This document shows positions 18,866 through 49,668 of a stretch of 64,000 nucleotides of DNA, piece by piece (positions within the stretch are counted from its first letter, which is position 1; the number at the start of each line of letters is the position of its first letter). The notes beneath the pieces are model-generated. The model was not told the DNA's origin. It did no database searches and was given only the letters and a program-made list of their open reading frames with translations. A program made the translations under genes and the position numbers. The stretch spans positions 1-64,000 of the forward strand of contig JAHFST010000005.1 in the NCBI GenBank assembly GCA_023265625.1, written 5' to 3'. This DNA comes from Deltaproteobacteria bacterium (GTDB lineage Bacteria > UBA10199 > JACPAL01 > JAHFST01).

Positions 18866-18888
18866 GAAGGTACTACCAAGAGGTGTCT

Positions 18889-20100: not shown

Positions 20101-20104
20101 TCTT

Positions 20105-20722: not shown

Positions 20723-20729
20723 GGGCATT

Positions 20730-21488
20730 ATGATTAAAGCCCGCGTCATGCCTACTCTGCTGGTGAAGGGCTTCGGTCTCGTCAAAGGGGTCCGTTTCGA
20801 TAGTTGGCGTCCCATTGGCAGCATCATGCAGGCCGTGAAGGTATATAATATGCGCGAAGTGGATGAACTCGTCTTACTGGATATTCGGGCAACCGACGAT
20901 AGTCGGATGCCTGATTTTTCGTTAATCGATGATATTGCCGATGAGTGCTTTATGCCCCTCACCGTTGGGGGCGGCATTCGATCCATCGATGATGTGAGAA
21001 AACTGCTCCAGGTCGGTGCCGACAAGATTGCCATCAATACCGCCGCCGTTGAAACTCCCGGGCTGGTTTCAGTTCTATCAGAAAAATTCGGGGCACAATG
21101 CATCGTGATCTCGATTGATGCAAAAAAATTAGCCAATGGCAAATACGAGGTTTTTACCCATTCCGCCACGAAACCAACCGGCCTCGATCCTGTCTCATTT
21201 GCCCAACAAATGGAACGAAACGGGGCGGGGGAAATTCTGCTCACTTCCATTGATCGCGACGGCACGATGCTGGGCTATGACCTGGAGTTGATCCAAATGG
21301 TCAGCCAAGCAGTTTCCATTCCGGTCATTGCTTCTGGGGGGGCGGGCAATTACCAACATATGGAGGCGGCACTTACCGAGGCCAATGCCACGGCCGTGGC
21401 TGCCTCCAGTATCTTCCAATTCACCCAGCAAACGCCCATAGAGGCTAAACGTTACTTATCTGACCACGGCATTAAAGTTAGAATTTAA
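20730..21488 (+). CDS. hisF: HisF-like ammonia-channel subunit lacking the catalytic Asp11, module 1
   Basis: A 252-residue (beta/alpha)8 barrel of the HisF family. The canonical start CLDVKDGRVVKG is replaced by TLLVKGFGLVKG, so the position of Asp11, the general acid/base of imidazole-glycerol-phosphate synthase, is Leu11. The second Asp, equivalent to Asp130, is kept in ISIDAKK. TVGGGIRS and IPVIASGGAGN are the phosphate-binding loops. It probably serves as an ammonia conduit for the neighbouring sugar amidotransferase and not as an IGP synthase. Confidence 0.9.
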   Translation: MIKARVMPTLLVKGFGLVKGVRFDSWRPIGSIMQAVKVYNMREVDELVLLDIRATDDSRMPDFSLIDDIADECFMPLTVGGGIRSIDDVRKLLQVGADKIAINTAAVETPGLVSVLSEKFGAQCIVISIDAKKLANGKYEVFTHSATKPTGLDPVSFAQQMERNGAGEILLTSIDRDGTMLGYDLELIQMVSQAVSIPVIASGGAGNYQHMEAALTEANATAVAASSIFQFTQQTPIEAKRYLSDHGIKVRI

Positions 21489-22854: not shown

Positions 22855-23868
22855 TTATAATGAAAGCGGCCATTCTTTATTTTCTTGATTATTGTCACCG
22901 GACAGCCTTTCCAAATCGGCAACACACCCCATGCAAACTGTACCAGCACCATATTCTTTCTGAATATTTCCCATCTTCAGACCCATGGCCACCCAGCGGC
23001 ATACTTGTCCCGCGGTGATCGACTTACAGTAGCAAACCATGGGGTCTTCCATACGATTGGCACTCCTAACACTACATACTGCTTCTTTCTTGTCCTGCCT
23101 ATTTTTCCCAGATGCAAAAAGGATTCCCATATGATCCATACCGGAGAGTATTGATGTACGATGGTGCCAGGTTTGAACGTAGCTATTCATTTTGTATTTA
23201 AAATGAAAAATCAGCATACCGGGACCTGATGAAAAAAAGGCTGGGAGCTCGTTGAAAAGTTCTTCGAGTCTATGGACGTGCAACGATTTCTTTGGGATAG
23301 ATATTTTTTTACCCATTTCATGTTCTCCGGCTTGATCATACAGCTTAACCTCATACTCGTTATCAAAGTCGTGGTGATTGATTGCCACCAACGCAGGTTC
23401 AAAATCCTCATTGCTCGTGATCCCTGGATAATAAAGATAACTACTATCAATCATAGAAGGGTCGGCACCGCGGGCCATCATCATGGGATAGTTCACGGCA
23501 ATCTTGCCATCTTGAGAATAGACCGAGGCCCATACTTCGCTATAAAAAAATCGCTCATCCCATTTCTCATTCCTGGAAAAAATAGTTACCTCAAAATAAC
23601 CGTTGGTGATCAAACGGCCTGCCAGCACATCTTGCAATGAAATGATTGTGAAGTTATAGAGAAGCACTTCCTGAGAGAATGTCTCTGCAATGATCTTTCC
23701 CTGTTCATAGACGCGGATCCGTGCCTGTAATGGAAAATGAGCCGGATTGAGGGACATGTGAGCCCCATTCAGCGTCACCGTTGTGTTGCACTGATCATCG
23801 CACCGGCACCAACCCACCAACGGGGGGTAACAATCCGCCAATTGATTCAGAGATGTTGTATCTGCCAT
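22855..23868 (-). CDS. Unknown protein with C-terminal BFD-like [2Fe-2S] domain
   Basis: A 337-residue protein. The C-terminal 45 residues match the BFD-like ferredoxin domain: CYC (Cys279, Cys281), KSITAGQVCRWVAMG, an EYGAGTVC turn and CMGC (Cys312, Cys315), the four ligands of a [2Fe-2S] cluster. Residues 1-260 are beta-rich and not recognised. They share a layout with the gene upstream: a strand-rich domain, then a helix (RLEELFNELPAFFSSGPG) and a final strand pair. The two genes overlap by 22 bp. Both lie on the minus strand, against the direction of the surrounding glycan genes. A redox or scaffold role is possible, but I cannot assign one. Confidence 0.75.
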   Translation of the reverse strand: MADTTSLNQLADCYPPLVGWCRCDDQCNTTVTLNGAHMSLNPAHFPLQARIRVYEQGKIIAETFSQEVLLYNFTIISLQDVLAGRLITNGYFEVTIFSRNEKWDERFFYSEVWASVYSQDGKIAVNYPMMMARGADPSMIDSSYLYYPGITSNEDFEPALVAINHHDFDNEYEVKLYDQAGEHEMGKKISIPKKSLHVHRLEELFNELPAFFSSGPGMLIFHFKYKMNSYVQTWHHRTSILSGMDHMGILFASGKNRQDKKEAVCSVRSANRMEDPMVCYCKSITAGQVCRWVAMGLKMGNIQKEYGAGTVCMGCVADLERLSGDNNQENKEWPLSL

Positions 23869-24788
23869 GTGCCTAGTTCCCGATTGTGAATGAAATAGTA
23901 ATAAATGCCCCCTTCGCTATCATTGGTCACATAGAGCGCGCCCGGTGCGCCCCTTAAAAAATCTGACAGGTCATTGAAGTATTTTGATAGCGGTATGAAG
24001 CATGATCCCCTCGTGTTGAGTTCAATCCTAATGATCTGCGGATGTGCATCCTGTGCGCAGTTAAGCAACTGACATTCAAACTTAACCGGCCTTGGCGCCC
24101 TATTGCATAGGGCTATAAATGTTTCCCTGTTATGATCGCATATGATAGTTGGATAGATGGTCATGCGATTTCTATTAAGCAATGCGCCTTTTTCATGGGT
24201 GGTTGTGATGGAATTATTGTTGTGCCAAAAAGCGTATACCCGAAGCGAGTGTAAATCCTCTTCGGCAGTTTCAAGGGTAAAGGCGCCATATTCCGCATCA
24301 ACATGGGCGGAGGCCAATAATTCTTTAACATCAAATGTGTGTGTTTCCCGCAGTCGGATGGTCGCATAACGGCGCAATATTTCGTCCCCGCGTTGATTGT
24401 AGAGTGAAAAATTGTAGTCGATCTCCGTGCGAGGGACCTTTGGATGATCGAACAGGCTCATGTTCACCCGCGTCCGCAATTGGGGCAAATTGGTAAAAAA
24501 CAACACCTGAGTCCAGCGTGCCGGCAGGGCATTGACATACTTGATAAAATTTGGATGTTGTCCCAACCGCCTCACGATTAGACGCCCCATTTCTGCGGGA
24601 TATTTTTGTTCGATCAGGGCCATGGCCTGTTGCAAAAATTGCGCCTGCCTGTCTAAGGGAATATTGAAGAGAAACCGGTCAAATTCTCGGTAGCTTCCTT
24701 GTGAAAACAAATCGATACCCTGCGCAAGAATACGACTTTCCTTCTCTTGAGTATCAGGGCAATAAGGCTCAAGCGCCTGCGGAAACTG
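23847..24788 (-). CDS. Unknown protein, paralogous in layout to its BFD-domain neighbour
   Basis: A 313-residue protein. About 90 helical N-terminal residues (SRILAQGIDLFSQGSYREFD) precede two beta-rich segments, and the end reads PLSKYFNDLSDFLRGAPGAL then a strand pair. This corresponds to the RLEELFNELPAFFSSGPG section of the gene downstream, but the [2Fe-2S] domain is absent. ATG 24788 is preferred because a sigma-54 motif lies just upstream; a longer reading from TTG 24851 would start upstream of that promoter. No good ribosome-binding site is visible, and the leader would be only a few bases, so the start is uncertain. No function is assigned. Confidence 0.65.
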   Translation of the reverse strand, partial: QFPQALEPYCPDTQEKESRILAQGIDLFSQGSYREFDRFLFNIPLDRQAQFLQQAMALIEQKYPAEMGRLIVRRLGQHPNFIKYVNALPARWTQVLFFTNLPQLRTRVNMSLFDHPKVPRTEIDYNFSLYNQRGDEILRRYATIRLRETHTFDVKELLASAHVDAEYGAFTLETAEEDLHSLRVYAFWHNNNSITTTHEKGALLNRNRMTIYPTIICDHNRETFIALCNRAPRPVKFECQLLNCAQDAHPQIIRIELNTRGSCFIPLSKYFNDLSDFLRGAPGALYVTNDSEGGIYYYFIHNRELGTWQIQHL

Positions 24789-24803
24789 CATTTTTATTTT
24801 AAT

Positions 24804-24819
24804 TGCAGATATTATGCCA
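24804..24819 (-). promoter_or_regulatory. Sigma-54 promoter (minus strand), TGGCAT-N5-CTGCA
   Basis: Read on the minus strand, TGGCAT (24819-24814), five bases, CTGCA (24808-24804). The GG and GC elements are kept with correct spacing; one base differs from TTGCA. Transcription would begin near 24794, only about 6 bases before ATG 24788. It would drive the two unknown minus-strand genes. Confidence 0.5.
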
Positions 24820-24886
24820 ATGATAATTAAAAATAACTTAAGTAATATCAAATAGTTACACTAATAAAACACCTCCCTCTCAAGAG

Positions 24887-25921
24887 GTGACGGAATTTTT
24901 TTCCGCTTCAGAACCTCATGCATTGAAATTTAACCTCGAAAAATGTTACAGCCCGTGGTCCATGCTGAGTCCACAACAAAACAAGTTCCTAAAAAATTCC
25001 CCCTATCTTCGATTTAAGATTTTTTCTAATCTTTGGCCTCACTATCAAAAATGTCCCCCATTGTCCGCCTTACAAGCCTCCACTCAAGGGAGACCATTGG
25101 TCTTTTTGTCCGATCCGCTTCCATCTGATTTTGACGGCGCGCCATTACGATCTAAGGCAATTATCTTGGCGGACTGTCACGTCTTAGCGCAACTAAAGCG
25201 GCTCAAATGCCTACCGCACCTTTGGTATGCGCCTCCCTCGCTCCATGAATATTATGAACATGTCCATCATCTAAAAAGTCTCGGCACTAGTGTCTGCATG
25301 ATAAACCATGCGACCCCGGTTTCTGTCTGCAATCGCATCCGCAATCCTGTCGTCAGGATCGATGAAGAGATCCCGAATTTGCTGGACAACCTAGGCCAGG
25401 AGCCATTATTCGATGCTCATAGAATTTGCGCCTTGTTGGGATGTGTATTCACGCCTCTGAACAAGATTAATACCTTGCCGCAATTAACCCCGATAGATTT
25501 GACCGATGTTGTCGCGTCACTCTCTCCCGTGGTACCCTCCAGCCCTTTTGCGGTTACTTCTGCCCCTGTCATTCAGGGTTTTATTCAGGAACTGAGCCAA
25601 CATCTAGAAAATATTTACCGTTTTCTCTATCTGGAAACTCTCGATAGAATTTTACAAGGAGAGGGGGGGGAAGCTAGAATGCGCGCTAAATACACGTCTT
25701 TTTTCCATGAGCTGGCGCATATCATCTCCCAATTCAAAGGCAGGCTTCCGTCTTTTATCCCCGCCATCTTAGCTTGCGAGGATCAATTATTGGAGGAATC
25801 ATTAAGAGAAATGAAGGAAGACATGGCATGGAATGAAGAACTTGAATCGAAGCTTTTGTGTTATGTCTATTGGTTTCAAGGATGCTTATACTGGCTTAAC
25901 TTGATTGCTTGCAGCCTATGA
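24887..25921 (+). CDS. Degenerate Maf-like protein lacking the GPS and GQDLA motifs
   Basis: A 344-residue protein. RPLVFLSDPLPSDFDGAP then KAIILADCHVLAQLKRLKCL and PHLWYAPPS follow the order of Maf segments such as KAIYCCSDATLTLLLKHGIN then PLFVASLE, and the C-terminus is helical like Maf. The usual AAGPSL and LLGQDLAFD motifs are missing and the protein is half the normal length. It ends in a 4-bp ATGA overlap with a full-length maf, so it is probably translated and coupled to it. GTG 24887 is the only upstream start and overlaps the only Shine-Dalgarno-like bases, so the N-terminus is uncertain. Assignment to Maf is my inference. Confidence 0.5.
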   Translation: MTEFFSASEPHALKFNLEKCYSPWSMLSPQQNKFLKNSPYLRFKIFSNLWPHYQKCPPLSALQASTQGRPLVFLSDPLPSDFDGAPLRSKAIILADCHVLAQLKRLKCLPHLWYAPPSLHEYYEHVHHLKSLGTSVCMINHATPVSVCNRIRNPVVRIDEEIPNLLDNLGQEPLFDAHRICALLGCVFTPLNKINTLPQLTPIDLTDVVASLSPVVPSSPFAVTSAPVIQGFIQELSQHLENIYRFLYLETLDRILQGEGGEARMRAKYTSFFHELAHIISQFKGRLPSFIPAILACEDQLLEESLREMKEDMAWNEELESKLLCYVYWFQGCLYWLNLIACSL

Positions 25922-27774
25922 GTTTTCTTGAAAAAAACCTGCAATTCTTAAAGAATACAGATCAGGACCTGGCAAAACGCGTTTCTGACCATCTGCAGCA
26001 TCAACCCATCAAGCCCTTAACATTCGATTCAAATGGCCTAAAAAATGTCCGGTTTGACAAGAATGAGTGGCTTTACAACAACAATCTGGAAAACGAATGC
26101 CATGTGTTGCTGGAAAAAATACATAAGACCTACAACCCCCAAATTGAGCTCTGGCTAGGGTTGGGACTGGGATACCATCTTTGTTCCTATCTCGGCAACC
26201 CTCATCCCCTGAATCAGTTTGTCTTGATAGTCGAACCCTCCATGGATTTTTTTTGTTATTTTTTGACCCAGCAAGACCTATCCGCTTTCCCTAGAAAACC
26301 GTTGATCTTCTGGCTTATCGCCCTCAATAATCAAGAACTTCATTTATTTTTTTTGAGGTTGCTGAATGACGGGAATTTTAGAAACTGCATTCAAAATCGC
26401 CTCACTATTGAGTGGGGATACGCCTCACAACGTCTCGAAGAAACCAAGCAAATCTGGCAAGATTTGGCCGTTCACTCCGAGCCTTGTATCCAATCCAACT
26501 CAATCGATGGATTCTATGGCTTCATGAACCTAATAGGCAACTGGAATATCTTGCAGTCCTCCCCTCCCCTGTCAGAATTTAAGGGAGCCTTGGAGGGGAT
26601 GCCGGGCATTGTTGTTTCTTCCGGCCCCTCTCTGCAACATTCGTTGCACTTATTGAAAGATGTTCGGGATAATGCGGCAATCTTTGCGGTTGATTCCGCC
26701 TACCGCTTACTGTTGCAGGCGGGCATTCAGCCTCACATGACCGGCTGTCTGGAACGGATCCCTTATCAGTCAACCTTGTATGCCAACACAGAAAACCACG
26801 AGTCTGTCTTTTTTGGCCCTCCGCTGCTCTATCCTGAGATATTTCTTCAGCACCATGGCCCGAAGGTTTTCTTGGAACAACAAGGTTTCTCCACCTTCTG
26901 GCTATTCCCGAACACACCGCCTTCTGGGCAAATTCCCCCTGTCACTTGCGTATCTCACATTGCCCTCTATGTACTGTGGTATTTGGGCTGTCGTCCCATC
27001 TATCTCCTGGGCCAAGATCTCGCCTTTGATCCAAAAACAAGGCAATCACATATGTCAGGCCTGACTCTCGACACCAGCAGTAACACCATGAAAAGTTATG
27101 GCATGAATTTATTATCCGTGCCCGCAAACAGCGGGAAAACGATCGAAACTAGCGAGTTGTGGTGGCATTATTCGATCGATTTTCTCAATATGATCTATCC
27201 GCTGCACATGGATTGCATCAACGTCATTCCGTCCGAATACGGCCTGCAACTTGGGAATATCCCGCGTGAAGACCCCACGACTGTCTTTCCGATGAGATTC
27301 CCCGCAAAACTGGACGTCAAAACGCGGTTAAGAGAAATATTTGATGAGTGGCGGCAAATAAAACAAGCGCAGCACCAAGATGCAATGTCGGCCTCTGTGA
27401 AAGAAGCAAAGATTAAACTTCCCAAAATGCTGTCCAAGTTGAATCGCCTCACAGAAAATATCTACATTTTCTATCTGGAACATAACCTTGCCGATCACCC
27501 AACCGTAGATTGGAGTAAGGACTACCAGGGCTTCCTACAGGATATAGAAAAAAGCATCCAAGACATCATGGACGATCACTCTTTCATCACATTGTTGTTC
27601 CCAATAGTCGCGGGAACGCATAATAGGCTCATGGGGTTAAGTTATACTCTCATGGCGGAAGACAATTCATCTTCCCAGATCTGGTCCAGCAAGCTTTTGA
27701 TCGTATTAAATTGGCTTTCGGAAATGATTATCCTATGCCAGATGCTCCTGAACCATTTGGATAAAATACCTTAG
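25918..27774 (+). CDS. Maf-type flagellin glycosyltransferase (DUF115), type D, copy 2
   Basis: A 618-residue Maf protein, a close paralogue of the one at 16870-18717. It has LWLGLGLGYHLCSYL, PGIVVSSGPSLQHSLHLL (about 230-248), HMTGCLERIPYQ, and IYLLGQDLAFDPKTRQSHMSG (shown in part). ATG 25918 overlaps the preceding stop (ATGA); the in-frame TTG 25909 is less likely. Both type D copies share VSHIALYVLWYLGCRP, so the duplication is fairly recent relative to the other Maf types here. Confidence 0.92.
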   Translation: MSFLEKNLQFLKNTDQDLAKRVSDHLQHQPIKPLTFDSNGLKNVRFDKNEWLYNNNLENECHVLLEKIHKTYNPQIELWLGLGLGYHLCSYLGNPHPLNQFVLIVEPSMDFFCYFLTQQDLSAFPRKPLIFWLIALNNQELHLFFLRLLNDGNFRNCIQNRLTIEWGYASQRLEETKQIWQDLAVHSEPCIQSNSIDGFYGFMNLIGNWNILQSSPPLSEFKGALEGMPGIVVSSGPSLQHSLHLLKDVRDNAAIFAVDSAYRLLLQAGIQPHMTGCLERIPYQSTLYANTENHESVFFGPPLLYPEIFLQHHGPKVFLEQQGFSTFWLFPNTPPSGQIPPVTCVSHIALYVLWYLGCRPIYLLGQDLAFDPKTRQSHMSGLTLDTSSNTMKSYGMNLLSVPANSGKTIETSELWWHYSIDFLNMIYPLHMDCINVIPSEYGLQLGNIPREDPTTVFPMRFPAKLDVKTRLREIFDEWRQIKQAQHQDAMSASVKEAKIKLPKMLSKLNRLTENIYIFYLEHNLADHPTVDWSKDYQGFLQDIEKSIQDIMDDHSFITLLFPIVAGTHNRLMGLSYTLMAEDNSSSQIWSSKLLIVLNWLSEMIILCQMLLNHLDKIP

Positions 27775-27908: not shown

Positions 27909-27948
27909 TTAGCTAGTGAACAGACTGTTGCTAGCGGGAAGATACGCC

Positions 27949-29919
27949 ATGGATGACAGAGATCTACTAGAAAGATTCGACCTTTCCGAAATTCCATGTC
28001 AAGGAGGGCCTGCTCTCAGCACGGTTGTGCCATCCCAATCTTCTCTGCATATTTATATTTTTACCAAAACGGAAAATGCGCAAAGATTTTTCCTAAATCT
28101 TGCATCGGCTCCACTCCATGGATCGTCCGTTTTTATCCTCCCTGACGTCAAAACCATTCCCGCCCAATGGCTACCAAGAAAGGCATCCGTCTACCTACTT
28201 TCAACGGCAAATTACATCTTAGACAAGAATGATATCAATATAACCGATAAAATCTGGGAGGCCCTGTATCGATACTTTGTGATCGATGCCTGGGGACAAT
28301 TCGCGCGGCAGGACTACAGGCTGCCCCTGATTATGAGCGACGACCCCGAATCCACCGCCTCCACACCTCACTTCCTCAACAACCTGCTCGCACCTTATAT
28401 TGAAATGGATAAAAAACTCCCCCCATCAAACACGGGTAAGCTTCAAACCAGGGAAGGCATCCTCGTCCAAAATACCGAAAATGGGGAGCTCTTCAACTCA
28501 CTCTATGAAACCCTGAGGTTCTCGGACAAACCGGTCTATCAAATCAATAACAATACGGGTTGGGTATCTGGAAGAGGTCTCACGAAGGAGAAATATCAGG
28601 ACATGAATAACAAAGATTTTGCCGATTACCTGATCCAAAAAAACATTGGGATGATTTATTTCATCAATTATTATTTTATGGCCATTGATGAGACGGGGAT
28701 AAGCCGCCTTTGGGTCCTGAAACGATTGGGCGTCATCGGTATTTCTGTCATTGTTGACATGGTCCTGGATGGGATGCACCCTATTCCGCTGCGTTATCTG
28801 CCTAACAACATTCACGCCATGGTCCTACACAGCACCGAAAACTTCCATGCATTTTTACAATACAGGTCATCTGCCCAGCTTCATAAGTGTCCTCAGATTG
28901 CCCCTAGCCCAAAGAAGGACCATCCTCCTCACAACGCCTCCATAGAAGGATTAGTGGTGACTTCAAATTCCCGACTCTTTTTTCTCAAGGATCTCAAAAA
29001 TCAAGGCTTCGATTGCACCCTCCTCTACCCGCTATTCCATCAACTACTCCAAAGGCAAATGCCCATCTACCACACCTATTTCATCTTTCTCCACGCCCTC
29101 GGCCAGGCGGGACTCAAGTTAAGCAAGGATAGGATGCTAGCCCTATTCAAGTACCTTACCTATACCTCCATCGTCTTAAGAACCTTTGTCCGGTATGAAC
29201 TCATCCAGAAAGCCGCACAAGTAACAGAACGCATCGGTCTTCCATTCAAAATATACGGCGATGATGATTGGCAAATGTTGTTTCCAAAATACCATCAAAA
29301 TAAATACCTCAATCAAACTGAGCTTGCTGCAGCACGCCAAAATAACATCAATCTGGACGCAACCCCCTCCAGCAGCTTTTACAGCCAGCATCCCGTCATC
29401 CCGCTGGTTCTGTTGGGAGGCGGCAGCATTTTAGCGCCCGCTCCTTATCCCTCTTCAGCTAAATCGCATCCTGCAGCGACAAAGGCGCTCAAACGTTTCT
29501 ACTTCAACAAGGCTGAGGATATGAAGGCCGCATTATTCAATGTGCTAGAAAAACCTCGCCTTGACCTATCTGAACAGGAGGCGGTCTCCGACGTGTTTGG
29601 GGTGTCCACATTAATCCAGTCTGCCAACCACATCCTCCAAGGCACCCCCTCAAACCGCTGGGATCTCATCCCGACCCTATCGGGCATGATCCCCACTATG
29701 CCTCCGGAAGAATATGAATTCATGGATTGTTGCGCCGACTACGTACTGGCGCTCTTCCAAGGCAACTATCAAAGACGCCATCCCGCAACCGAAACATCCG
29801 AGGCCCTGTTTCAACAGCTCGCTCTTTTTGGTAACAATAGAAACCAATTTTTTAAAGAAATACAGGATAGCTGCCCGTATTTGGAGAATTTATTGATCTT
29901 TCTCGGTGGAACCCCATGA
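27949..29919 (+). CDS. Putative GT-B glycosyltransferase, CgeB-like C-terminal part
   Basis: A 656-residue protein not recognised over most of its length. Residues from about 440 (GLPFKIYGDDDWQMLFPKY, then ELAAARQNNINLDATPSSSF, then VLLGGGSILAPAPYP and FYFNKAEDMKAALFNVL, partly shown) follow the order of CgeB-like/Glyco_trans_1_2 domains: G-D-W, N-INL and a final helix after a strand. The Glu of the usual vFEA motif is not seen, so activity is uncertain. It has its own sigma-54 promoter and overlaps the double TPR-GT41 gene by ATGA, which points to glycan work. Confidence 0.6.
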   Translation: MDDRDLLERFDLSEIPCQGGPALSTVVPSQSSLHIYIFTKTENAQRFFLNLASAPLHGSSVFILPDVKTIPAQWLPRKASVYLLSTANYILDKNDINITDKIWEALYRYFVIDAWGQFARQDYRLPLIMSDDPESTASTPHFLNNLLAPYIEMDKKLPPSNTGKLQTREGILVQNTENGELFNSLYETLRFSDKPVYQINNNTGWVSGRGLTKEKYQDMNNKDFADYLIQKNIGMIYFINYYFMAIDETGISRLWVLKRLGVIGISVIVDMVLDGMHPIPLRYLPNNIHAMVLHSTENFHAFLQYRSSAQLHKCPQIAPSPKKDHPPHNASIEGLVVTSNSRLFFLKDLKNQGFDCTLLYPLFHQLLQRQMPIYHTYFIFLHALGQAGLKLSKDRMLALFKYLTYTSIVLRTFVRYELIQKAAQVTERIGLPFKIYGDDDWQMLFPKYHQNKYLNQTELAAARQNNINLDATPSSSFYSQHPVIPLVLLGGGSILAPAPYPSSAKSHPAATKALKRFYFNKAEDMKAALFNVLEKPRLDLSEQEAVSDVFGVSTLIQSANHILQGTPSNRWDLIPTLSGMIPTMPPEEYEFMDCCADYVLALFQGNYQRRHPATETSEALFQQLALFGNNRNQFFKEIQDSCPYLENLLIFLGGTP

Positions 29920-32900
29920 ACGAACCCATGACCAAATCAGAAAATGCCGATTTATTAGAGGCCGCCGCGTTACATCGACTGGGACAACGGCAACCTGCCA
30001 GGGTAATCTATGCGAAAATATTACAAGAAAACCCAAACGACTTTAACGCCCTATTTCTCTTTGGCCTATGGCAGCATGAACAGTTAAATTATTCCGAGGC
30101 TATATCGTTACTGCGCCGCGCCCTCCGTATCGATGATCGCCATGACGGCTGTTGGTATTTGCTTGGTTCATGCCTGGAGGCCCTGGGTGATAACGCCGAA
30201 GCGGGGCGTTGCTATCAAAATACTTGCCAGATCAATCCCCAACATGTGACGGCCCTTAAAAAGATCGGCTACTTCCTGCACAACCAGGGCAAGCTTGATG
30301 AGTCAATGCTGTATTACCAACGGGCCAGCGCTCTGACTCCCAACGATCATGAGATACATACCAATCTCGGAATGATTTTCACGCAACAAGGCAAACTCAC
30401 TGAGGCCAACGATCACTATCAAGACTCCCTCAAAATCAACCCCAATGTTCCGGAGACTCATAACAATCTGGGTTGTGTCTCTAAAGATAGTGGGTTGCTA
30501 GATCAGGCCCTTATCAACTTCCAACAAGCTATCTCCCTCCGCCCCAATTACCATGCTGCTCATAGTAACTACCTCTTCGCACTAAATTACCTTCCTAATC
30601 TGTCTCCGGAAGAGATCTTTGAAAAACATCGGGCTTGGGGATCCATGATCCGGAACGGTATCAACCTGGGGCAGGGCGCAATAAATTGCGCCCCTACAAA
30701 TAACAAAATCAAGGTCGGGTATCTCTCTCCTGACTTCCGTACCCACTCCGTCGCCTACTTCATCGAACCCATCCTCGCTCATCACAACCAAGATCAGTTT
30801 GACATCTTCTGCTATGCCGATGTCCCGCACCCTGATCAAACTACACATCGCCTCAAGAGCCTCGTCCCTCACTGGTATGATACCCATCTCCTGCTTGACT
30901 CAGAACTCTGCGACCTCATCCAATCCCATCAACTCGATATCTTGGTCGATCTCGCTGGTCACACCGCCGGTAACCGTCTCCCGGTCCTGGCTCGAAAAGT
31001 AGCCCCCATCCAAGTCACCTATCTGGGCTACCCCAACACCACAGGACTCTCTCAGATCGACTACCGTCTCACTGACCCCATTGCCGATCCCCCCGATCAA
31101 GACCCCCTCTACACCGAAAAACTCTATCGACTCCCTCACGGCTTCCTCTGTTATCAACCCCCGCTCAATGCCCCGGACATCAAGCTACTCCCAGCCCTCC
31201 ACAATGGCTTCATTACCTTTGGCTCCTGCAACGCCTTGCCCAAGATTAACCAAAATGTCATCGCTCTCTGGTCCCAGATCCTCAACGCCGTCCCTCATTC
31301 CAAGCTCCTCCTCAAAAATAGCTCCTTCGGCGACCTCAACACTCGCCAACACTACCTCCAACTCTTCTCCCAGCACGGCATCTCCCCGGATCGCCTCTCC
31401 CTCTTGGGTTGGTCCAAGGACACCGCCTCGCATCTCTCCATCTACCACCAAATCGACATCGCCCTCGACACGTTCCCCTACAACGGGACCACCACCACCT
31501 GCGAAGCACTCTGGATGGGGGTTCCGGTCATCACGCTCCAGGGAAACAGGCATGCGGGAAGGGTCGGAATGAGCGTTTTGGAGAATGTTCAGCTCTCTGA
31601 CTGGATTGCCGCCACACCGTTGGACTATCAACAGAAGGCCATCTATTGGACCCAAAACTTACAGGAGTTATCCAACCTCAGGACAAAACTTCGTGGTCGA
31701 ATGACACACGCTCCTTTACTCAACGCACCCTCATTTGTCAAAAATCTTGAAAAAACTTATCTGCAGATGACCGCCTCTCATTTACTTGTACAAGCGTTTG
31801 AATACCATCAATCAGGAAACCTTACGGCAGCGGAGCCATTGTATTTAGAAATTTTGAGGGAAGAGCCTCAGAATTCTCGGGCCTTATTTTTACTGGCCAC
31901 ATTGCAGGCCCAGTGCAGCAAATTTGAGGAGGCTAAGAGACTCTTTCAAAAGGTATTAGAACTGACTCCTGACTCCATTGAGACTTACAATAATTTAGGC
32001 AATGTCTTGATGATGCAAGGAAAACACGAGGAGGCGTTGCATTGCTATCAGAGTGCGCTGCGTCTCAAACCTGACTATGACGAGGGATTTCTCAATATGG
32101 GAAAAGTCTTGAGGGCCATGGGGCACAACGATCTTGCCCTCGATAGCTATCGCCAGGCCATCTTGATCAATCCCAAACAAGTCGCTGCATTGGTTGAGAT
32201 AGGACTATCGCTTTACCAGCAGGGAAATATTTCTGCATCCATGGAATTCTATGAAAAAGCCCTGGCCATTGAACCCCGCTGCTTACCTGCCCTGGAAAAC
32301 TTGGGAATTTGTTTGCAGGCAGAGGGAAAAATTAATCAGGCCATCCTTTGTTATCAACAGGTTATTGCAACAAGTCCCAGTGCCACCACCTACAATAATC
32401 TTGGCGTGGCTTACAAAGAGGCTGGAGAATTGGCAATGGCGGTAAATTGTTACCAGCAGGCCATCGATCTTAACCCTGAACATGCCATCGCCTATTCCAA
32501 CCTGGGAGCGGGTTATAAAAATCAAGGCAAACTGGATTTGGCCATCGATGCCTACCGTAAGGCCCTTCAGCTCAATCCAGGCTACGCAGAGGCCCATAGC
32601 AATCTCTTACTCACCCTCAATTATCATCCGAAATACTCTGCATCATCCTTGTATGCCGAGCATCACGCATGGAATCAAATACATGCCTCAACATCCCCGT
32701 GTTTGTCGCATTCTAACCGGTTAGAAAACCGAGTTCTTAAAATTGGCTATGTCTCTCCCGATTTATACAACCATTCGGTCAGCTATTTTCTTGAGCCAAT
32801 TTTATCCAAACACGACCCTAAGCAATTTGATGTCTTTGTCTATGCGCAAGTCTTACGCCCGGATCAGACCACCCAACGCCTAAAATCATTAGTACCCCAT

Positions 32901-33848
32901 TGGCGTTCAACAGTCGGCTTATCCGATGATGAGATGTTCAAGATGATCCAAGCCGACGAGATTGATATCCTGATTGACCTCGCCGGGCACACGGCATCCA
33001 ATCGACTAAAAGTTTTTTCCATGAAACCTGCACCGATTCAAGTGACTTACTTGGGTTACCCCAATACCACAGGCCTCAAAACCATGGATTACCGCCTGAC
33101 AGATCAATGGGCCGATCCCCCCGATCAGGACCAGTGGCACAGTGAACGCCTGATACGCCTCCCTCGAGGGTTTTTGTGTTATACACCCCCGAGAAACGCA
33201 CCGGACGTTAACCCTTTGCCGGCGGATCAATGCGGCGTATTTACTTTTGGGTCTTTTAACCATTTGGCAAAGATCACTCCTCCGGTCATTAAAACTTGGG
33301 CGGGAATTCTCAAAAGAGTCCCGCAATCTCGCCTCGTCATCAAGGCAAAATCACTAAAAGATCAAGCCACCTGTGACCATTATCGTACCCTGTTTGCCCG
33401 GCAAAATATTTCATCGGATCGGATCGATTTGGTGAGTTGGGCCCCCTCCACGGAGGGACATCTGGCCCTTTACCATAAAATTGATGTGGCCCTCGATGCA
33501 TTTCCCTATCATGGCACAACCACCACCTGTGAGGCCCTCTGGATGGGTGTTCCGGTCATTACATTATCCGGCAACCGACATGCCAGTCGCGTGGGAAACA
33601 GCCTGCTGACTCGCCTTGACTGTCAAGAATGGATCGCCGCTGATGAGGACCATTACGTTGCTTTGGCTCAGCAACTAGCCGACAATCTGCCAAAACTGCG
33701 GGACTTTCGCATGAAGGCCCGCGAGAGGATGATGCGATCTTCTCTCTGCGATCCTCAGTCAATCACCACCGATATGGAACAGGCCTATCGATCCATGTGG
33801 CAGGACTATGGGCGTAAGCCATTGGCCTTTTCACCAAAAATAACTTAG
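29916..33848 (+). CDS. Double TPR-GT41 glycosyltransferase (two complete enzymes in one chain)
   Basis: A 1310-residue protein with the order TPR - GT41 - TPR - GT41. TPRs lie at about 10-235 and 625-905. The GT41 cores start at IKVGYLSPDFRTHS (about 264) and LKIGYVSPDLYNHS (about 940), and each has an AGHTA motif, a VTYLGYPNTTGL motif, a FGS(C/F)N...KI motif and CEALWMGVPVITL. No stop or frameshift interrupts the chain. The first half is close to the protein at 15155 and carries the same GTAGGGGCG repeat in its linker (residues about 253-261). Two active centres could glycosylate two sites or add two sugars. ATGA overlap with the previous gene; the next gene starts 9 bp after. Confidence 0.9.
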   Translation: MNEPMTKSENADLLEAAALHRLGQRQPARVIYAKILQENPNDFNALFLFGLWQHEQLNYSEAISLLRRALRIDDRHDGCWYLLGSCLEALGDNAEAGRCYQNTCQINPQHVTALKKIGYFLHNQGKLDESMLYYQRASALTPNDHEIHTNLGMIFTQQGKLTEANDHYQDSLKINPNVPETHNNLGCVSKDSGLLDQALINFQQAISLRPNYHAAHSNYLFALNYLPNLSPEEIFEKHRAWGSMIRNGINLGQGAINCAPTNNKIKVGYLSPDFRTHSVAYFIEPILAHHNQDQFDIFCYADVPHPDQTTHRLKSLVPHWYDTHLLLDSELCDLIQSHQLDILVDLAGHTAGNRLPVLARKVAPIQVTYLGYPNTTGLSQIDYRLTDPIADPPDQDPLYTEKLYRLPHGFLCYQPPLNAPDIKLLPALHNGFITFGSCNALPKINQNVIALWSQILNAVPHSKLLLKNSSFGDLNTRQHYLQLFSQHGISPDRLSLLGWSKDTASHLSIYHQIDIALDTFPYNGTTTTCEALWMGVPVITLQGNRHAGRVGMSVLENVQLSDWIAATPLDYQQKAIYWTQNLQELSNLRTKLRGRMTHAPLLNAPSFVKNLEKTYLQMTASHLLVQAFEYHQSGNLTAAEPLYLEILREEPQNSRALFLLATLQAQCSKFEEAKRLFQKVLELTPDSIETYNNLGNVLMMQGKHEEALHCYQSALRLKPDYDEGFLNMGKVLRAMGHNDLALDSYRQAILINPKQVAALVEIGLSLYQQGNISASMEFYEKALAIEPRCLPALENLGICLQAEGKINQAILCYQQVIATSPSATTYNNLGVAYKEAGELAMAVNCYQQAIDLNPEHAIAYSNLGAGYKNQGKLDLAIDAYRKALQLNPGYAEAHSNLLLTLNYHPKYSASSLYAEHHAWNQIHASTSPCLSHSNRLENRVLKIGYVSPDLYNHSVSYFLEPILSKHDPKQFDVFVYAQVLRPDQTTQRLKSLVPHWRSTVGLSDDEMFKMIQADEIDILIDLAGHTASNRLKVFSMKPAPIQVTYLGYPNTTGLKTMDYRLTDQWADPPDQDQWHSERLIRLPRGFLCYTPPRNAPDVNPLPADQCGVFTFGSFNHLAKITPPVIKTWAGILKRVPQSRLVIKAKSLKDQATCDHYRTLFARQNISSDRIDLVSWAPSTEGHLALYHKIDVALDAFPYHGTTTTCEALWMGVPVITLSGNRHASRVGNSLLTRLDCQEWIAADEDHYVALAQQLADNLPKLRDFRMKARERMMRSSLCDPQSITTDMEQAYRSMWQDYGRKPLAFSPKIT
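30674..30697. repeat. GTAGGGGCG-type palindromic repeat, copy 3
   Basis: GGGCGCAAT (30674-30682) and ATTGCGCCC (30685-30693) form a perfect 9-bp inverted repeat followed by CTACAAAT. It is read in frame as part of the linker LGQGAINCAPTN between TPR and GT41. Confidence 0.7.
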
Positions 33849-33857
33849 GGGAGTCTT

Positions 33858-34466
33858 ATGGTGGTGATTATTGATTATCAAATGGGCAATAAGCAGTCTG
33901 TCTCTAACGCCTTTGCATCACTTGGGTGTGCCGTGGTGACTTCGCATCAACCCGAAGATATTAAACAGGCAACCCATCTTGTTTTGCCGGGAGTCGGGGC
34001 CTTTGGTGATGGCATGAAAAACCTAACCCAATTGGGTCTCATCCCCATCCTAGCAGAAGAAGTGCTGGGTAAGAAAAAACCTTTCTTGGGGGTTTGCCTT
34101 GGCATGCAACTTCTGGCCACCAAGGGTACTGAATACGGTCAGCATCAGGGGTTAAACTGGATCCCCGGGGTCGTCGATCTCATCCCAAGTCAAGCAGAGC
34201 TCAGAATACCGCACGTGGGCTGGAACAATGTTGCCATCAAAAGAAAACACCCGCTTGTCAATGACCTAGGGGAAGAGGCGACTTTTTATTTTGTTCACAG
34301 TTATCATTTTCAACCGGAATCGCCTGAAGATATTGTCGCAACATGTAAGTATGGCATTGAGTTCGCTGCCATCTTACAAAAAGATAATATTTTTGCCACC
34401 CAGTTTCACCCAGAAAAAAGCCATAAAGACGGCATGCTCATCCTAAAAAACTTCCTCCATGCTTAA
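33858..34466 (+). CDS. hisH: HisH-like glutamine amidotransferase subunit, module 2
   Basis: A 202-residue class I glutaminase and paralogue of the gene at 20105. Catalytic Cys80 lies in LGVCLGMQLLA, and FHPEKSH supplies His and Glu. GVGAFGDGMKN and PHVGWNNV are family segments. GGGGAG precedes the ATG. It overlaps hisF by 8 bp, the tightest coupling in this module, which fits a HisH-HisF complex. Confidence 0.92.
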   Translation: MVVIIDYQMGNKQSVSNAFASLGCAVVTSHQPEDIKQATHLVLPGVGAFGDGMKNLTQLGLIPILAEEVLGKKKPFLGVCLGMQLLATKGTEYGQHQGLNWIPGVVDLIPSQAELRIPHVGWNNVAIKRKHPLVNDLGEEATFYFVHSYHFQPESPEDIVATCKYGIEFAAILQKDNIFATQFHPEKSHKDGMLILKNFLHA

Positions 34467-35256
34467 GATCCGACTCATCCCTATTTTACTGTTAAAAAAC
34501 GGCCTCATTGTCAGGAGTGAGTCTTTTAAATTTCATCAAATTATCGGCGATCCGATCACGCAACTCTCCCGCTATAACCGCTGGTCCGTCGATGAACTCA
34601 TTTACATCGATATCAGTTCAGACGATCATTACGACGTCCGGCGTGAGGATGCCAAAATCGAAACAAGTGAAAAACGCAGCTTGCTGGATATCATCGAGGT
34701 CGTTTCCAAGTCGTGCTTTGTGCCCCTAACTTTTGGGGGGCGCATCCGAACACTCAACGATATTCGCAGCCGAGTGGCTCGCGGTGCCGATAAGGTCACC
34801 CTCAATTACCAAGCCATTATGGATCCGGGATTCATCACTCAAGCGGCCAAGGTTTTTGGGAACCAGTGCATCGTGGTGTCCATAGACGTATTAAAAAATG
34901 TCCATGGACAATATGAGGTATTCACGTCAGGGCGCCAAAAAGCCACGGGGTTGGATCCCGTCCAATGGGCCAAGGAGGTGGCAAGACTGGGCGCGGGTGA
35001 GATCCTGTTGAATTCGATCGATAGAGATGGTACGGCTGCGGGATTCGATAGCGACTTGATCAGGTCCGTGGTAACAGCCACTTCAATCCCAGTCATTGCT
35101 TGTGGTGGGGCTGGAAAATTTAAGGACTTTGTGACGATCGTGCAAGAAGCCAAACCATCCGCAGTGGCCGCCGCCAACCTGTTCCATTTCACGGAATTAA
35201 GCTACCGTCACGCCAAAAAGGAAATGCTCAAGGGGGGATTAAATGTCCGATCATGA
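34459..35256 (+). CDS. hisF: HisF-like ammonia-channel subunit lacking the catalytic Asp11, module 2
   Basis: A 265-residue HisF-family barrel. The N-terminus reads LIPILLLKNGLIV where HisF has a CLDVKDGRV pattern, so Leu11 again replaces the catalytic Asp. Asp130 is kept (VVSIDVLK). TFGGRIRT replaces the usual GGGIR. IPVIACGGAGKF is conserved. It overlaps the amidotransferase gene downstream by 14 bp. It is too divergent from the first module's hisF to be a recent copy. Confidence 0.9.
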   Translation: MLKIRLIPILLLKNGLIVRSESFKFHQIIGDPITQLSRYNRWSVDELIYIDISSDDHYDVRREDAKIETSEKRSLLDIIEVVSKSCFVPLTFGGRIRTLNDIRSRVARGADKVTLNYQAIMDPGFITQAAKVFGNQCIVVSIDVLKNVHGQYEVFTSGRQKATGLDPVQWAKEVARLGAGEILLNSIDRDGTAAGFDSDLIRSVVTATSIPVIACGGAGKFKDFVTIVQEAKPSAVAAANLFHFTELSYRHAKKEMLKGGLNVRS

Positions 35257-36394
35257 TTATTCTAAACGGCCGAACAAAGTCACCTATTGTTCCAAATGCG
35301 TCTATCCGTCATTGGCCGTTTACATCACCATGGAAGAAGGCAATGTTTGCAGTGGCTGTCGTGTCTCCGGGCAAAAGGGTGGCATCGATTGGGAGGAGCG
35401 TCAAAAGCTACTCATCGAAACCATCAAAGAATCAAAAATCAAGTCCGGCGCCAACTACGACTGCATCATCCCTGTCAGCGGTGGCAAAGACAGTTATTTT
35501 CAGACCCATTTCATCAAAAACGTCCTTGGCTTTAATCCCCTGCTCGTCACCTATCATGGCAATAATTACCTCCCAGAGGGGGAATACAACTTAGAACGCA
35601 TGCGCGAAGTGTTCGGGGTTGACCATCTCATCTTCCGTCCCAGCACCTCTCTACTGATCAAAATGAACCGAGCCGGCTTCAAGCTGCAAGGGGACATGAA
35701 TTGGCATGCCCACTGCGGTATTTTCACTTATCCCGTCCAAATTGCCGTCAAATTCAAAATTCCAATCCTCATTTGGGGTGAACATGGCCCCACAGACCTG
35801 GGAGGACAAGTCTCGCTGCATGATATGATCGAAATGAGCGCCCGAAAAAGATTGGAACATGACCTGAGAGGTTTTGATTGGTATGATTTCGTGGGATTGG
35901 AGGGGATCAAGGAAGAGGAACTCCTGTGGGCAAAATATCCCTCCGATGAAGAACTCGAAGAGATTGGGGTGCGCGGGCTTTATCTCAACAATTTCCTACA
36001 ATGGGACGCCAATAAGCAAGTCATGCTCGTCATGGAACAGTATCGCTGGAAGGCCGCCGATCAGGAATTTGAAAGAACCTATCGAAAATTCTCCAACCTG
36101 GACGACATGCATGAAAATGGCATTCACGATTACATGAAATACATCAAATTTGGCTATGGCCGCGCCACCGATCATGCCTCCAAGGATATTCGCCTGGGAA
36201 AGTTGACCCGTGCCCAAGGCGTGGAGATGGTAAAAAAATATGACCACGTCAAACCCAGACGCGACCTAGAGCGTTGGCTGAAATACGTCAACATGACCGA
36301 GGAAGAATTTGATACAATCGCCGACACCTTCCGAGATCCGAGAGTTTGGTGGCAAGAGAATGGCGTCTGGAAGAAAGATAACCTCTGGGATTAA
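35243..36394 (+). CDS. N-acetyl sugar amidotransferase (WbuX/WbpG/PseA-like), module 2
   Basis: A 383-residue PP-loop enzyme. Cys pairs CSKC (Cys16, Cys19) and CSGC; PP-loop SGGKDS at about 78-83; IFTYPVQIAVKFKIPILIWGEHGP and GIHDYMKYIKFGYGRATDH (parts shown) match the family. It is clearly diverged from the module 1 enzyme and its gene order is reversed (hisH-hisF-amidotransferase here, amidotransferase-hisH-hisF there), so the two modules were probably gained separately and may amidate different sugars. The 3' end overlaps the convergent histidine kinase gene by 4 bp. Confidence 0.92.
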   Translation: MSDHDYSKRPNKVTYCSKCVYPSLAVYITMEEGNVCSGCRVSGQKGGIDWEERQKLLIETIKESKIKSGANYDCIIPVSGGKDSYFQTHFIKNVLGFNPLLVTYHGNNYLPEGEYNLERMREVFGVDHLIFRPSTSLLIKMNRAGFKLQGDMNWHAHCGIFTYPVQIAVKFKIPILIWGEHGPTDLGGQVSLHDMIEMSARKRLEHDLRGFDWYDFVGLEGIKEEELLWAKYPSDEELEEIGVRGLYLNNFLQWDANKQVMLVMEQYRWKAADQEFERTYRKFSNLDDMHENGIHDYMKYIKFGYGRATDHASKDIRLGKLTRAQGVEMVKKYDHVKPRRDLERWLKYVNMTEEEFDTIADTFRDPRVWWQENGVWKKDNLWD

Positions 36395-39242: not shown

Positions 39243-40727
39243 TTATCTCGATTCCAACAGACTCAAGGCAATCTGTGGGATGGCGTTTGCTCGTGCAAGC
39301 ACCGTCACACCGGCCTGTTGTAAGATCTGTTGAGAGGTGAGAGCTGCTGTTTCTACGGCAACGTCCGCATCGCGGATGCGCGACTCAGCGGCCGAAAGAT
39401 TTTCATTTCTGGTAGCAAGTTCCGCACTGGCCAGCTCAAATCGAATCGACTTGGATCCGACATCGGCGCGGCGTGTCTGCAGTTGACGGATCACGTTATC
39501 CAGGATGAAAATACCATCGGTGGCATTGGTAGAAGTCGCCACATTGAGTGTGTTCAGGGCAAAACCGGTACCCACTGAAACCGAAGTGGTTGTGCTGATT
39601 TCATCCGTCGCCCCGGTTAGGACAAAAGCATCATCCTTCACAAGTTTAAATGTGCCGCGATAGAGGCTATAAGCCGAAGTGGATAACATGGCTGTGCCCG
39701 TACCAAATCCGACAACGCCCCCGGAAACTGAGCCTGTCGAAATATTTAGCCGAACGGCAATATTTCTACCGTCAGTTGCCGTCAACACAATGGCACTGGA
39801 ACTGGAAACTTGAGTAGCCGTCACCCCCGTTGCAGAGGAAACAGTATTAATCGCATTGATCAATGTGGTGTTTCCGCTCGCACTCGCTGAAATGGCCGCG
39901 GAATGGAAAATGGTAACTCCGTTAATCGCCAAAATATCTTGAGAACCCAAATCGTTGGCACTCTCATAGGTAAGCAACGTAACCACATTTTGATTGACCA
40001 AGGCCGTTACCCCTGATTGGCCAGAAATGCTGTTAATGGCATTGACATAGGCAATGGCACTTTCGCTCGCCTCAACGGTGGAAACCCCATCGCTGCTAAA
40101 AGAAGTCGAACCAAGGGTAGCCCCATTGATGACGATACTGTCTGGGGCCGCAAAGAGTTGCGTTGCCAATGTGCCGGTCTGAGCCGTAATGGTGAGAGAG
40201 GTTAAAATGGCAATTCTACCAACAGCACTAGATTTGGTATCGGAAATAGACATCGAAAGGGTATCACCCGCCTTAGGTCCTACTTGGAACAGTTTGCTAA
40301 TAAAATTACCCGCCAACAGTTTAACTCCATCAAATTCATTGGCCAACGCCAGACGGTTGAATTCGCTGAGCAGATCCGTTGTGGCTGTTGAAATATTGGT
40401 ACGATCTGAGGTGGAGATCGTATCATCTGAGGCCTGCACCACCTTTTCTCGAAGTTGCTGCGCGATATCAGTCAGCTGGGCCAAACCACCTTCTGCAACC
40501 CCCAAGATGTTACTCCCGTTGGATAAGTTCAGTTGGGCCACGCCAATACCGCGAATCTGCGAACGCAACGACTCAGACTTTAATAGACCTACCACGTCAT
40601 CAGAACCCTTGTTAATACGAAGACCTGTTGAGAGTCTTTCCAGGGCGCCCGTCAACTTCTTGGTCGTTTGCTGCAACTTATTTTGGGCCGATAATGAAGC
40701 CACGTTTGTGTTAATTCTTAATCCCAT
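39243..40727 (-). CDS. fliC: Flagellin
   Basis: A 494-residue flagellin. The N-terminal D0/D1 part is canonical (GLRINTNVASLSAQNKL, ALERLSTGLRINKGSDD, ANEFDGVKLLAGNF), as is the C-terminal part (LQTRRADVGSKSIRFELA, ENLSAAESRIRDADVA, VLARANAIPQIALSLLESR). The middle 170-400 is Ser/Thr/Ala-rich and would form the surface-exposed D2/D3 domains, the likely glycosylation sites. AAGGAGGAAT lies before the ATG. It is the only full flagellin in the window. A sigma-28-like promoter is upstream. Confidence 0.97.
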   Translation of the reverse strand: MGLRINTNVASLSAQNKLQQTTKKLTGALERLSTGLRINKGSDDVVGLLKSESLRSQIRGIGVAQLNLSNGSNILGVAEGGLAQLTDIAQQLREKVVQASDDTISTSDRTNISTATTDLLSEFNRLALANEFDGVKLLAGNFISKLFQVGPKAGDTLSMSISDTKSSAVGRIAILTSLTITAQTGTLATQLFAAPDSIVINGATLGSTSFSSDGVSTVEASESAIAYVNAINSISGQSGVTALVNQNVVTLLTYESANDLGSQDILAINGVTIFHSAAISASASGNTTLINAINTVSSATGVTATQVSSSSAIVLTATDGRNIAVRLNISTGSVSGGVVGFGTGTAMLSTSAYSLYRGTFKLVKDDAFVLTGATDEISTTTSVSVGTGFALNTLNVATSTNATDGIFILDNVIRQLQTRRADVGSKSIRFELASAELATRNENLSAAESRIRDADVAVETAALTSQQILQQAGVTVLARANAIPQIALSLLESR

Positions 40728-41052: not shown

Positions 41053-42450
41053 ATGGCAAGTGGCTCAATCAGCTTTGGTGGGTTAGCATCAGGCTTAGAT
41101 ACTAAGAGCATTGTAGAAAGTCTGGTCACACTCAAGACCACTCAACTTATCCAACCTTTAAAAAATAAACTATCAGTTCTTAGCGCAAAAAAACTCTCTC
41201 TTCCAACCATAGAAGGGGTTTTTAAGAACCTCCGTACCGCAGCGCTTAACCTCAGAGACGGAAACGCCTTCAACCCAAAAGCAGCCACTTCATCGATTAC
41301 AACAGTGGCTAAAATTAATTCTGTCAACTCATCTACGGCAGTCTCTGGCACCTATGATTTAACCGCGGTCGGTCAACTGGCCCAGCCTGATCGGGTCATT
41401 TTTACTGGAGTAGCCGATAAGGACTCAACCCAATTTGGCACGGGAACAATCACGTTGACCTACAAAAGCGTCACCACCAACATTACCATTGATTCTACCA
41501 ACAACACCTTACAAGGTATTGCCACCGCCATCAATAGTGCCAGTGCCGGGGTAACCGCTACTATCATAAATGATGGTAGCGACTCGACCCCGTATCGCCT
41601 GACACTCACAGCCAATGTCAGCGGTTCGGACACCACTATCGGTACCACGATTACCGGCCCAACCATTACCGTCGATGCAGTCTCGTCCGCCACAACAGCC
41701 AATGAACCACAAAACGCCACTTTCAAAATCAACGGCGTCTCTATGTCTAGCAAGAGTAACACCGTATCTGAGGCTATTGCCGGGTTAGCTTTCGACCTGC
41801 TATCAACAGATACTACCAATACGATCACCCTGAAAATAAAACAGGACACCGCCGGTATCGTTGCTAAAATTACCTCATTTGTCACCGCCTATGCCAATCT
41901 AAGAAGCGCCCTGAAAGTCACTGTGGAGGCCGATCCCATTACGGGGAAATTTAGCCCCCTAGGACGTGATGTCACTTTTTCCAGTGCGAAGATCAACATC
42001 CAAAAGATCATGGGACGAACATTTAACAGTTTGGCCGGCTATAGTCTTAATTCCCTAGCCCAAATTGGCATCACCAGTGACAGTACGGGGGCGTTGCAAG
42101 TGGACACCTCAAAACTAACACAAGTCGTTGATAGTAGTTTGACCAATGTCAGCCTGCTCTTCCAGGGAAACTCTTCTGAGAATGGCATCGCTGAAGATAT
42201 GTATACCTATGTGGATAATATGACCAATGCCGGGGGAACCTTTGATGACAAAATGACAGATATTGACACTCAGACCCAGAGATTGCAGAAATTAAGTCTG
42301 GAGCGTCAAAATACTGTCGATGCTTATCAAAAGAAGCTTCAGGATCAATTCAACCGCTTGGAGAAAACAATTAATTTACTCAAGTCTCAGGAATCACAAC
42401 TTAGCTCCTTCACAAGTCTTTATTCCAATAGCTCCAATAAATTACTGTAA
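41053..42450 (+). CDS. fliD: Flagellar hook-associated protein 2 (filament cap)
   Basis: A 465-residue FliD. N-terminus SFGGLASGLDTKSIVESLV is typical, followed by coiled-coil helices and a Ser/Thr-rich middle. The C-terminal domain has ENGIAEDMYTYVDNMTNAGG, IDTQTQRLQKLSLERQ and a final coiled coil with FNRLEKTINLLKSQESQL. It caps the filament and folds exported flagellin. AAGGGAG lies just downstream of the promoter and serves the start. fliS follows by 16 bp. Confidence 0.96.
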   Translation: MASGSISFGGLASGLDTKSIVESLVTLKTTQLIQPLKNKLSVLSAKKLSLPTIEGVFKNLRTAALNLRDGNAFNPKAATSSITTVAKINSVNSSTAVSGTYDLTAVGQLAQPDRVIFTGVADKDSTQFGTGTITLTYKSVTTNITIDSTNNTLQGIATAINSASAGVTATIINDGSDSTPYRLTLTANVSGSDTTIGTTITGPTITVDAVSSATTANEPQNATFKINGVSMSSKSNTVSEAIAGLAFDLLSTDTTNTITLKIKQDTAGIVAKITSFVTAYANLRSALKVTVEADPITGKFSPLGRDVTFSSAKINIQKIMGRTFNSLAGYSLNSLAQIGITSDSTGALQVDTSKLTQVVDSSLTNVSLLFQGNSSENGIAEDMYTYVDNMTNAGGTFDDKMTDIDTQTQRLQKLSLERQNTVDAYQKKLQDQFNRLEKTINLLKSQESQLSSFTSLYSNSSNKLL

Positions 42451-42466
42451 AAGGGAGGTAAATATT

Positions 42467-49650: not shown

Positions 49651-49668
49651 AACCGATATCAAAAAATC

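Follow-up and report, generated by a model that had tools for sequence, protein, structure and literature searches.

SPINDLY (SPY), the protein O-fucosyltransferase of Arabidopsis (PDB 7Y4I / 8DTF-8DTI), is a plant nucleocytoplasmic enzyme that joins a TPR superhelix to a single GT41 domain. In its donor pocket, GDP-fucose is contacted by S496, V497, N662, K665, K689, H728, Y744, T747, T748, E752, I592 and A731 (PMC10027727). Human OGT, XcOGT and TtOGT possess the same GT41 fold and catalytic lysine. Few bacterial GT41 enzymes have a known donor, and for those bearing the Tyr at the Y744 position none has been agreed upon (PMC9715652). In Caulobacter crescentus, the soluble flagellin O-glycosyltransferase FlmG consists of a TPR-containing N-terminal domain, which binds flagellins, and a glycosyltransferase domain (PMC7591256). 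FlmG has a single module and uses pseudaminic acid, and Caulobacter has no Maf. GT41 genes of the SPINDLY type are also present amid the flagellin modification genes of enterobacterial flagellin glycosylation islands, mostly with methyltransferase domains, and the part of that report used here mentions no second GT41 domain (PMC4875605).

Here we describe a bacterial locus that resembles these systems, FlmG by its description, but in which two TPR-GT41 modules are predicted in one polypeptide beside flagellin genes. The window, i.e. the whole stretch of 64,000 nucleotides that was analysed, comes from a Deltaproteobacteria bacterium (contig JAHFST010000005.1) and holds a single ATG-initiated ORF of 1310 codons without internal stop, with the following parts.

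29916-33848, plus strand: double TPR-GT41 protein, 1310 aa
29943-30566, plus strand: first TPR region, about residues 10-217 (Pfam TPR; from residue 111, where the model starts, also modelled helical hairpins)
30690-31748, plus strand: first GT41 catalytic domain
31719-31817, plus strand: junction, residues 602-634, predicted as an unbroken helix from GT41-1 into the TPR of module 2
31785-32630, plus strand: second TPR region, about residues 624-905 (Pfam and model)
32670-33776, plus strand: second GT41 catalytic domain

The Pfam family Glyco_transf_41 (PF13844) matched the protein with an E-value of 2e-107 in four stretches, one N-terminal and one C-terminal for each half, and scored above the curated cut-off in each half, with TPR families matched ahead of both. 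A genome search placed the four pieces in one open frame (30690-31148, 31200-31748, 32670-33176 and 33243-33776), and at such scores a chance origin of these predicted domains is out of the question. The catalytic Lys (SPY K665) corresponds to K443 and K1119 and the ribose-binding acidic residue (SPY E752) to E530 and E1206. As far as sequence can tell, the layout is TPR-GT41-TPR-GT41 and both halves retain the catalytic and donor-binding residues. The original prediction of two complete TPR-GT41 enzymes in one polypeptide, each with the expected GT41 motifs, is borne out by the ORF, the Pfam matches and the kept residues. The two halves are 42% identical and their TPR arrays are of unequal length. 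An Rfam scan of the window gave no match.

An AlphaFold2 model spanning residues 111-1310, with 15 aligned sequences, likewise predicts a TPR superhelix and a two-lobed GT41 catalytic domain, in agreement with Foldseek. Within-domain confidence is good (mean pLDDT 87) and pTM is low (0.55), so the model does not fix how the two modules lie relative to each other. In the model, the final helix of GT41-1 extends without interruption into the helix that opens the second TPR array (model residues 494-523, protein residues 604-633). At the junction, Met618 (31767), when paired by eye, aligns with the start Met of a separate single-module GT41 gene in the window (MTASHLLVQAF versus MTDALLQTAF), as the loss of a stop codon between neighbouring genes would predict. 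Since no Shine-Dalgarno-like sequence was found 5' of Met618, an internal translation start at 31767 was rejected. The junction contains no repeated sequence. Exact matches of the separate gene to the first half do not exceed 40 nt, the longest lying within the catalytic region, and those between the two halves do not exceed 17 nt, so a misassembly at residue 620 would lack an evident substrate.

Among solved structures, SPINDLY is the best match for both halves (E-values 1e-162 and 3e-131), and a fold search with the model ranked SPY structures first (TM 0.92 by target length for the SPY-GDP-fucose complex), whereas human OGT, XcOGT and TtOGT are less similar. The donor-pocket equivalents are S278, V279, N439, K443, K467, H506, Y522 and E530 in the first GT41 domain and S954, V955, N1115, K1119, K1143, H1182, Y1198 and E1206 in the second. 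All three window modules match SPY at ten of the 12 pocket positions (S496, V497, N662, K665, K689, H728, Y744, T747, T748 and E752), among them K689, implicated in guanine recognition, and Y744, implicated in fucose recognition. At the remaining two, I592 is replaced by Leu and A731 by Ile in the first half and the single gene and by Leu in the second half, so that the Ala of SPINDLY, its third key residue, is not kept. The OGT residues L866, R904 and C917 are absent from all three modules, which have Lys, Ile/Leu and Tyr there. Lys and Tyr at the positions of SPY 689 and 744 each occur in 106 of the 155 modules of the bacterial GT41s compared; being this common they are permissive for fucose rather than proof of it, and the pair may be ancestral and hence non-diagnostic. 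Taking pocket residues and gene context together, the donor is probably GDP-fucose, as in SPINDLY, rather than UDP-GlcNAc. The earlier label 'O-GlcNAc-transferase-like' is the less likely one in view of the SPINDLY-like pocket, the absence of the OGT residues and the neighbouring gmd and fcl-like genes.

A genome search found no GT41 genes other than the double gene and the single gene, both within the window. The features that bear on their relation are given below.

15155-16873, plus strand: separate single TPR-GT41 gene, 572 aa (ATG at 15155)
30525-31586, plus strand, against 15539-16669 of the single gene: tract common to both genes, 83-87% identical in nucleotides, with diverged flanks
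15659-15742, plus strand: in-frame short interspersed repeat of 84 nt (CCHPEPKAKDL...FTDVQDD), in the single gene only

Aligned over 551 residues, the first half has 66% amino acid identity to the separate gene, and this identity is very unevenly distributed. The best-scoring block, residues 250-557 of the double protein (308 codons), reaches 88.6% amino acid identity as compared to 40.5% outside it, and the ungapped DNA matches comprise 104 nt at 83% (15539-15642 versus 30525-30628) and 925 nt at 87% (15746-16670 versus 30663-31587). Third-position identity is 0.76 inside the tract versus 0.34 outside (z 9.6; maximum of 40 permutations 4.7), and fourfold-degenerate sites agree at 104 of 139 positions inside and 12 of 37 outside, the latter being no better than in the comparison of the N- and C-terminal halves, so that synonymous sites there look saturated. 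Because purifying selection on the protein alone does not explain this contrast, it points to gene conversion or partial copying between paralogues: on the sequence evidence, the tract is a recent exchange or partial copy of about 1 kb that involved the first catalytic domain and the gene at 15155. The claimed near-identity of the first half to this gene thus holds for the tract and fails in its flanks, and an origin of the first half by simple recent duplication of the entire single gene is not supported, as those flanks look synonymously saturated. The 84-nt repeat, of which similar copies exist elsewhere in the genome, falls between the two matched stretches and presumably was inserted after the exchange or was missing from the copied tract.

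The original prediction knew of no described double GT41 of this layout. A reading of the layout as unique did not stand: among 84 loci (80 from a scan of genomes with an alignment of the window's three modules and four from a viral scan), 12 further ORFs were found that each contain two or three full TPR-GT41 modules. Triple-module ORFs are found at L013 and L019 (Xenococcaceae) and L022 (Thiotrichaceae), and double-module ORFs at L020 and L023 (Thiotrichaceae), at L037, L047 (two), L061 (two) and L078 (Planctomycetota) and at L070 (Betaproteobacteria). The host groups, Cyanobacteriota, Gamma- and Betaproteobacteria and Planctomycetota, are other than that of the window. Like the window protein, to which they are 36-44% identical, these ORFs have at least two complete modules per frame, but in most of them the linker is longer, loose or repetitive where the window protein has almost none. 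The calls were checked by Pfam over ten whole genomes; the 12 stand against a total of about 137 GT41 ORFs, sampled with a bias to close relatives, and every one of the 12 is from a metagenome-assembled genome (MAG). When 61 genomes were drawn evenly from the class to which the L061 genome (G065) belongs, six had GT41 and doubles were present in G065 alone, so the double layout is uncommon. A whole-protein search of public genome contigs found no close relative of the complete 1310-aa protein, whereas the alignment-based scan succeeded, and a narrow title and abstract search of open-licence papers found no description of a double GT41.

A tree groups the modules by lineage, with those of Xenococcaceae together (support 100), those of Thiotrichaceae together (98-99) and a second module common to three Planctomycetota MAGs (100). 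Each of the two modules of the L070 ORF pairs with a different gene, and related Betaproteobacteria (L067, L077, L080 and L081) carry these two genes unfused, which directly supports fusion of tandem neighbours. This pattern suggests that multi-module TPR-GT41 chains arose repeatedly and independently. For the window, the single-gene module and the first module of the double protein are sisters (100), and the second module has no supported clade grouping with them. A tree pairing both halves, as expected from one recent internal duplication, was rejected (AU p 0.007), a test in which the exchanged tract itself draws the first module toward the single gene.

The genes around the double gene form a flagellar and flagellin-glycosylation island.

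10165-11211, plus strand: GDP-mannose 4,6-dehydratase (gmd), 497.8 bits versus a cut-off of 415
11208-12131, plus strand: GDP-L-fucose synthase-like (Fcl-like), 465 bits, just below the cut-off of 500
12144-13286: group 1 glycosyltransferase gene
13300-15144, plus strand: Maf / PseD-like flagellin glycosyltransferase (MptE-like)
16870-18717, plus strand: Maf-like protein, whose gene overlaps the single GT41 gene at its 3' end
18883-21488, plus strand: WbuX-HisH-HisF-type cassette (acetamidino modification), copy 1
25909-27774, plus strand: Maf-like protein
27916-29919, plus strand: 667-aa protein of unknown family, with a 4-nt overlap with the start of the double gene
33858-36394, plus strand: HisH-HisF-WbuX-type cassette, copy 2, directly 3' of the double gene
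39243-40727, minus strand: flagellin, 494 aa, the presumed acceptor
41053-42850, plus strand: FliD and FliS
47767-55518, minus strand: four more Maf-like proteins

The gmd gene is the only one in the genome above the family cut-off. Seven Maf-like genes are present in the island, which also carries a sigma-70 family factor, a ParA/MinD-type ATPase, an SRP54-type GTPase and FlhA. The two acetamidino cassettes are only 35-48% identical in amino acids, which argues against a recent segmental duplication. NeuB has three strong matches in the genome, one of them at C21:84802 on the same contig, and one weak match. With flagellin, FliD and FliS close by, the genome context agrees with the predicted link to flagellin.

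Of the 46 genomes of the phylum examined, the source genome alone has GT41. Tetranucleotide agreement with the rest of the genome is 0.34-0.52 in the window from 16 kb on and 0.62-0.71 in the sampled remainder of the contig. A second FlhA, on another contig (C10), is 41% identical to that of the island, a level typical of most other class members, whereas the FlhA of one further genome in the class reaches 65% identity to the island copy. The simplest reading is that this flagellar and flagellin-glycosylation island was probably acquired horizontally and would represent a second flagellar system.

With about an even chance of being right, our preferred reading is that of a fused pair of SPINDLY-like GT41 transferases in a flagellin-glycosylation island, from whose sequence and setting we infer donor, acceptor and activity. 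The fusion would most simply result from stop loss between adjacent GT41 genes, since Met618 lies at the would-be start codon and module 1 passes directly into module 2. By analogy with FlmG, each TPR superhelix would bind unfolded flagellin in the cytoplasm, and each GT41 site would transfer a deoxyhexose, most likely fucose from GDP-fucose supplied by the island's own Gmd and Fcl-like enzymes, to Ser/Thr or to an already present glycan. Two tethered active sites could thereby modify several sites in one binding event before export. Co-localisation with flagellin is no proof of the acceptor, and one half could be structural or regulatory.

Several other explanations compete with this one. The same fused pair could act on flagellin with another donor, UDP-GlcNAc or, as FlmG does, a CMP-nonulosonic acid. 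We regard this as possible, if rather unlikely: some GT41 enzymes use UDP-GlcNAc, pseudaminic acid is the sugar that FlmG transfers, NeuB genes are present in the genome and acetamidino cassettes adjoin the double gene, but UDP-GlcNAc is disfavoured by Tyr for Cys at the 917 position and Lys for Leu at 866, and seven Maf-like proteins are already on hand for nonulosonic acids. With either donor, labour might be divided, one half being catalytic and the other a platform for substrate binding or regulation, or the second extending the product of the first. The mere 42% identity of the halves, their unequal TPR arrays and the lack of a supported clade joining the second module to the other two would fit such a division, which we consider unlikely because the compared donor-pocket residues kept in one half are also kept in the other. 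That the acceptor is a surface glycan, a different protein or the enzyme itself is in our view distinctly unlikely given the flagellin, FliD, FliS and seven Maf-like genes in the island, even though SPY fucosylates itself and a group 1 glycosyltransferase gene is present at 12144-13286.

An assembly or binning artefact, with separate genes misjoined or the contig stemming from a foreign organism, we judge very improbable. The genome is fragmented (37 contigs), the other 45 genomes of the phylum are without GT41 and the composition of the island is atypical. Against this, the junction has no repeat and its frame is continuous, the architecture recurs in other genomes, including the three Planctomycetota MAGs with a common second module, and one further genome of the class has the related FlhA. 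As the rest of the contig fits the tetranucleotide pattern of the genome, a contaminant contig is not supported.

A broader idea, a class of multi-site protein O-fucosyltransferases that arose by repeated, independent tandem SPINDLY-like fusion and decorate flagellin together with Maf enzymes, appears doubtful to us at present; if true, it would mean bacterial flagellin O-fucosylation by a two-site enzyme. With two SPINDLY-type pockets and the genome's only gmd in one island, this locus offers a simple and direct test of bacterial protein O-fucosylation, and the recurrence of two- and three-module chains raises the question whether tethered sites alter how many glycans flagellin carries or how these are spaced.

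The gene just upstream of the double GT41 gene (TPR-GT41-TPR-GT41) yielded no match when its product was searched against Pfam, NCBIfam and PHROGs; by eye, the C-terminal part of this protein seems to resemble a GT-B-type glycosyltransferase.

27916-29919, plus strand: 667-aa protein, 4-nt overlap with the start of the double GT41 gene

Among the loci retrieved by scanning public and viral genomes with three aligned TPR-GT41 modules, three carry a long ORF in which a single GT41 domain is followed by a C-terminal extension of several hundred residues.

L015, 5869-9903
L016, 2210-5458
L083, 5686-9120

Four betaproteobacterial loci (L067, L077, L080 and L081) hold separate GT41 genes in tandem arrays of about 5-7 each, the stop-to-stop frames of which overlap.

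An interspersed repeat lies inside the single GT41 gene; self-complementary matches were seen for it, and similar copies are present on contigs C6, C9 and C37 of the source genome.

15659-15742: 84-nt in-frame repeat, CHPEPKAKDL type

Elsewhere in the island, the first gene of an unassigned pair (22855-23868) has a BFD-like [2Fe-2S] domain match at its C-terminal end, and seven Maf-like genes were counted, three on the other strand and four consecutive, two of the latter sharing 64% identity.

22855-24851, minus strand: two adjoining genes without family assignment
47767-55518: four consecutive Maf-like genes

The source genome contains three FHIPEP-family genes, of which that on contig C16 may be part of a type III secretion system.

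61949-63982: FlhA of the island
C10, 76443-78470: FlhA, like those of the class
C16, 21531-23366: more distant FHIPEP match
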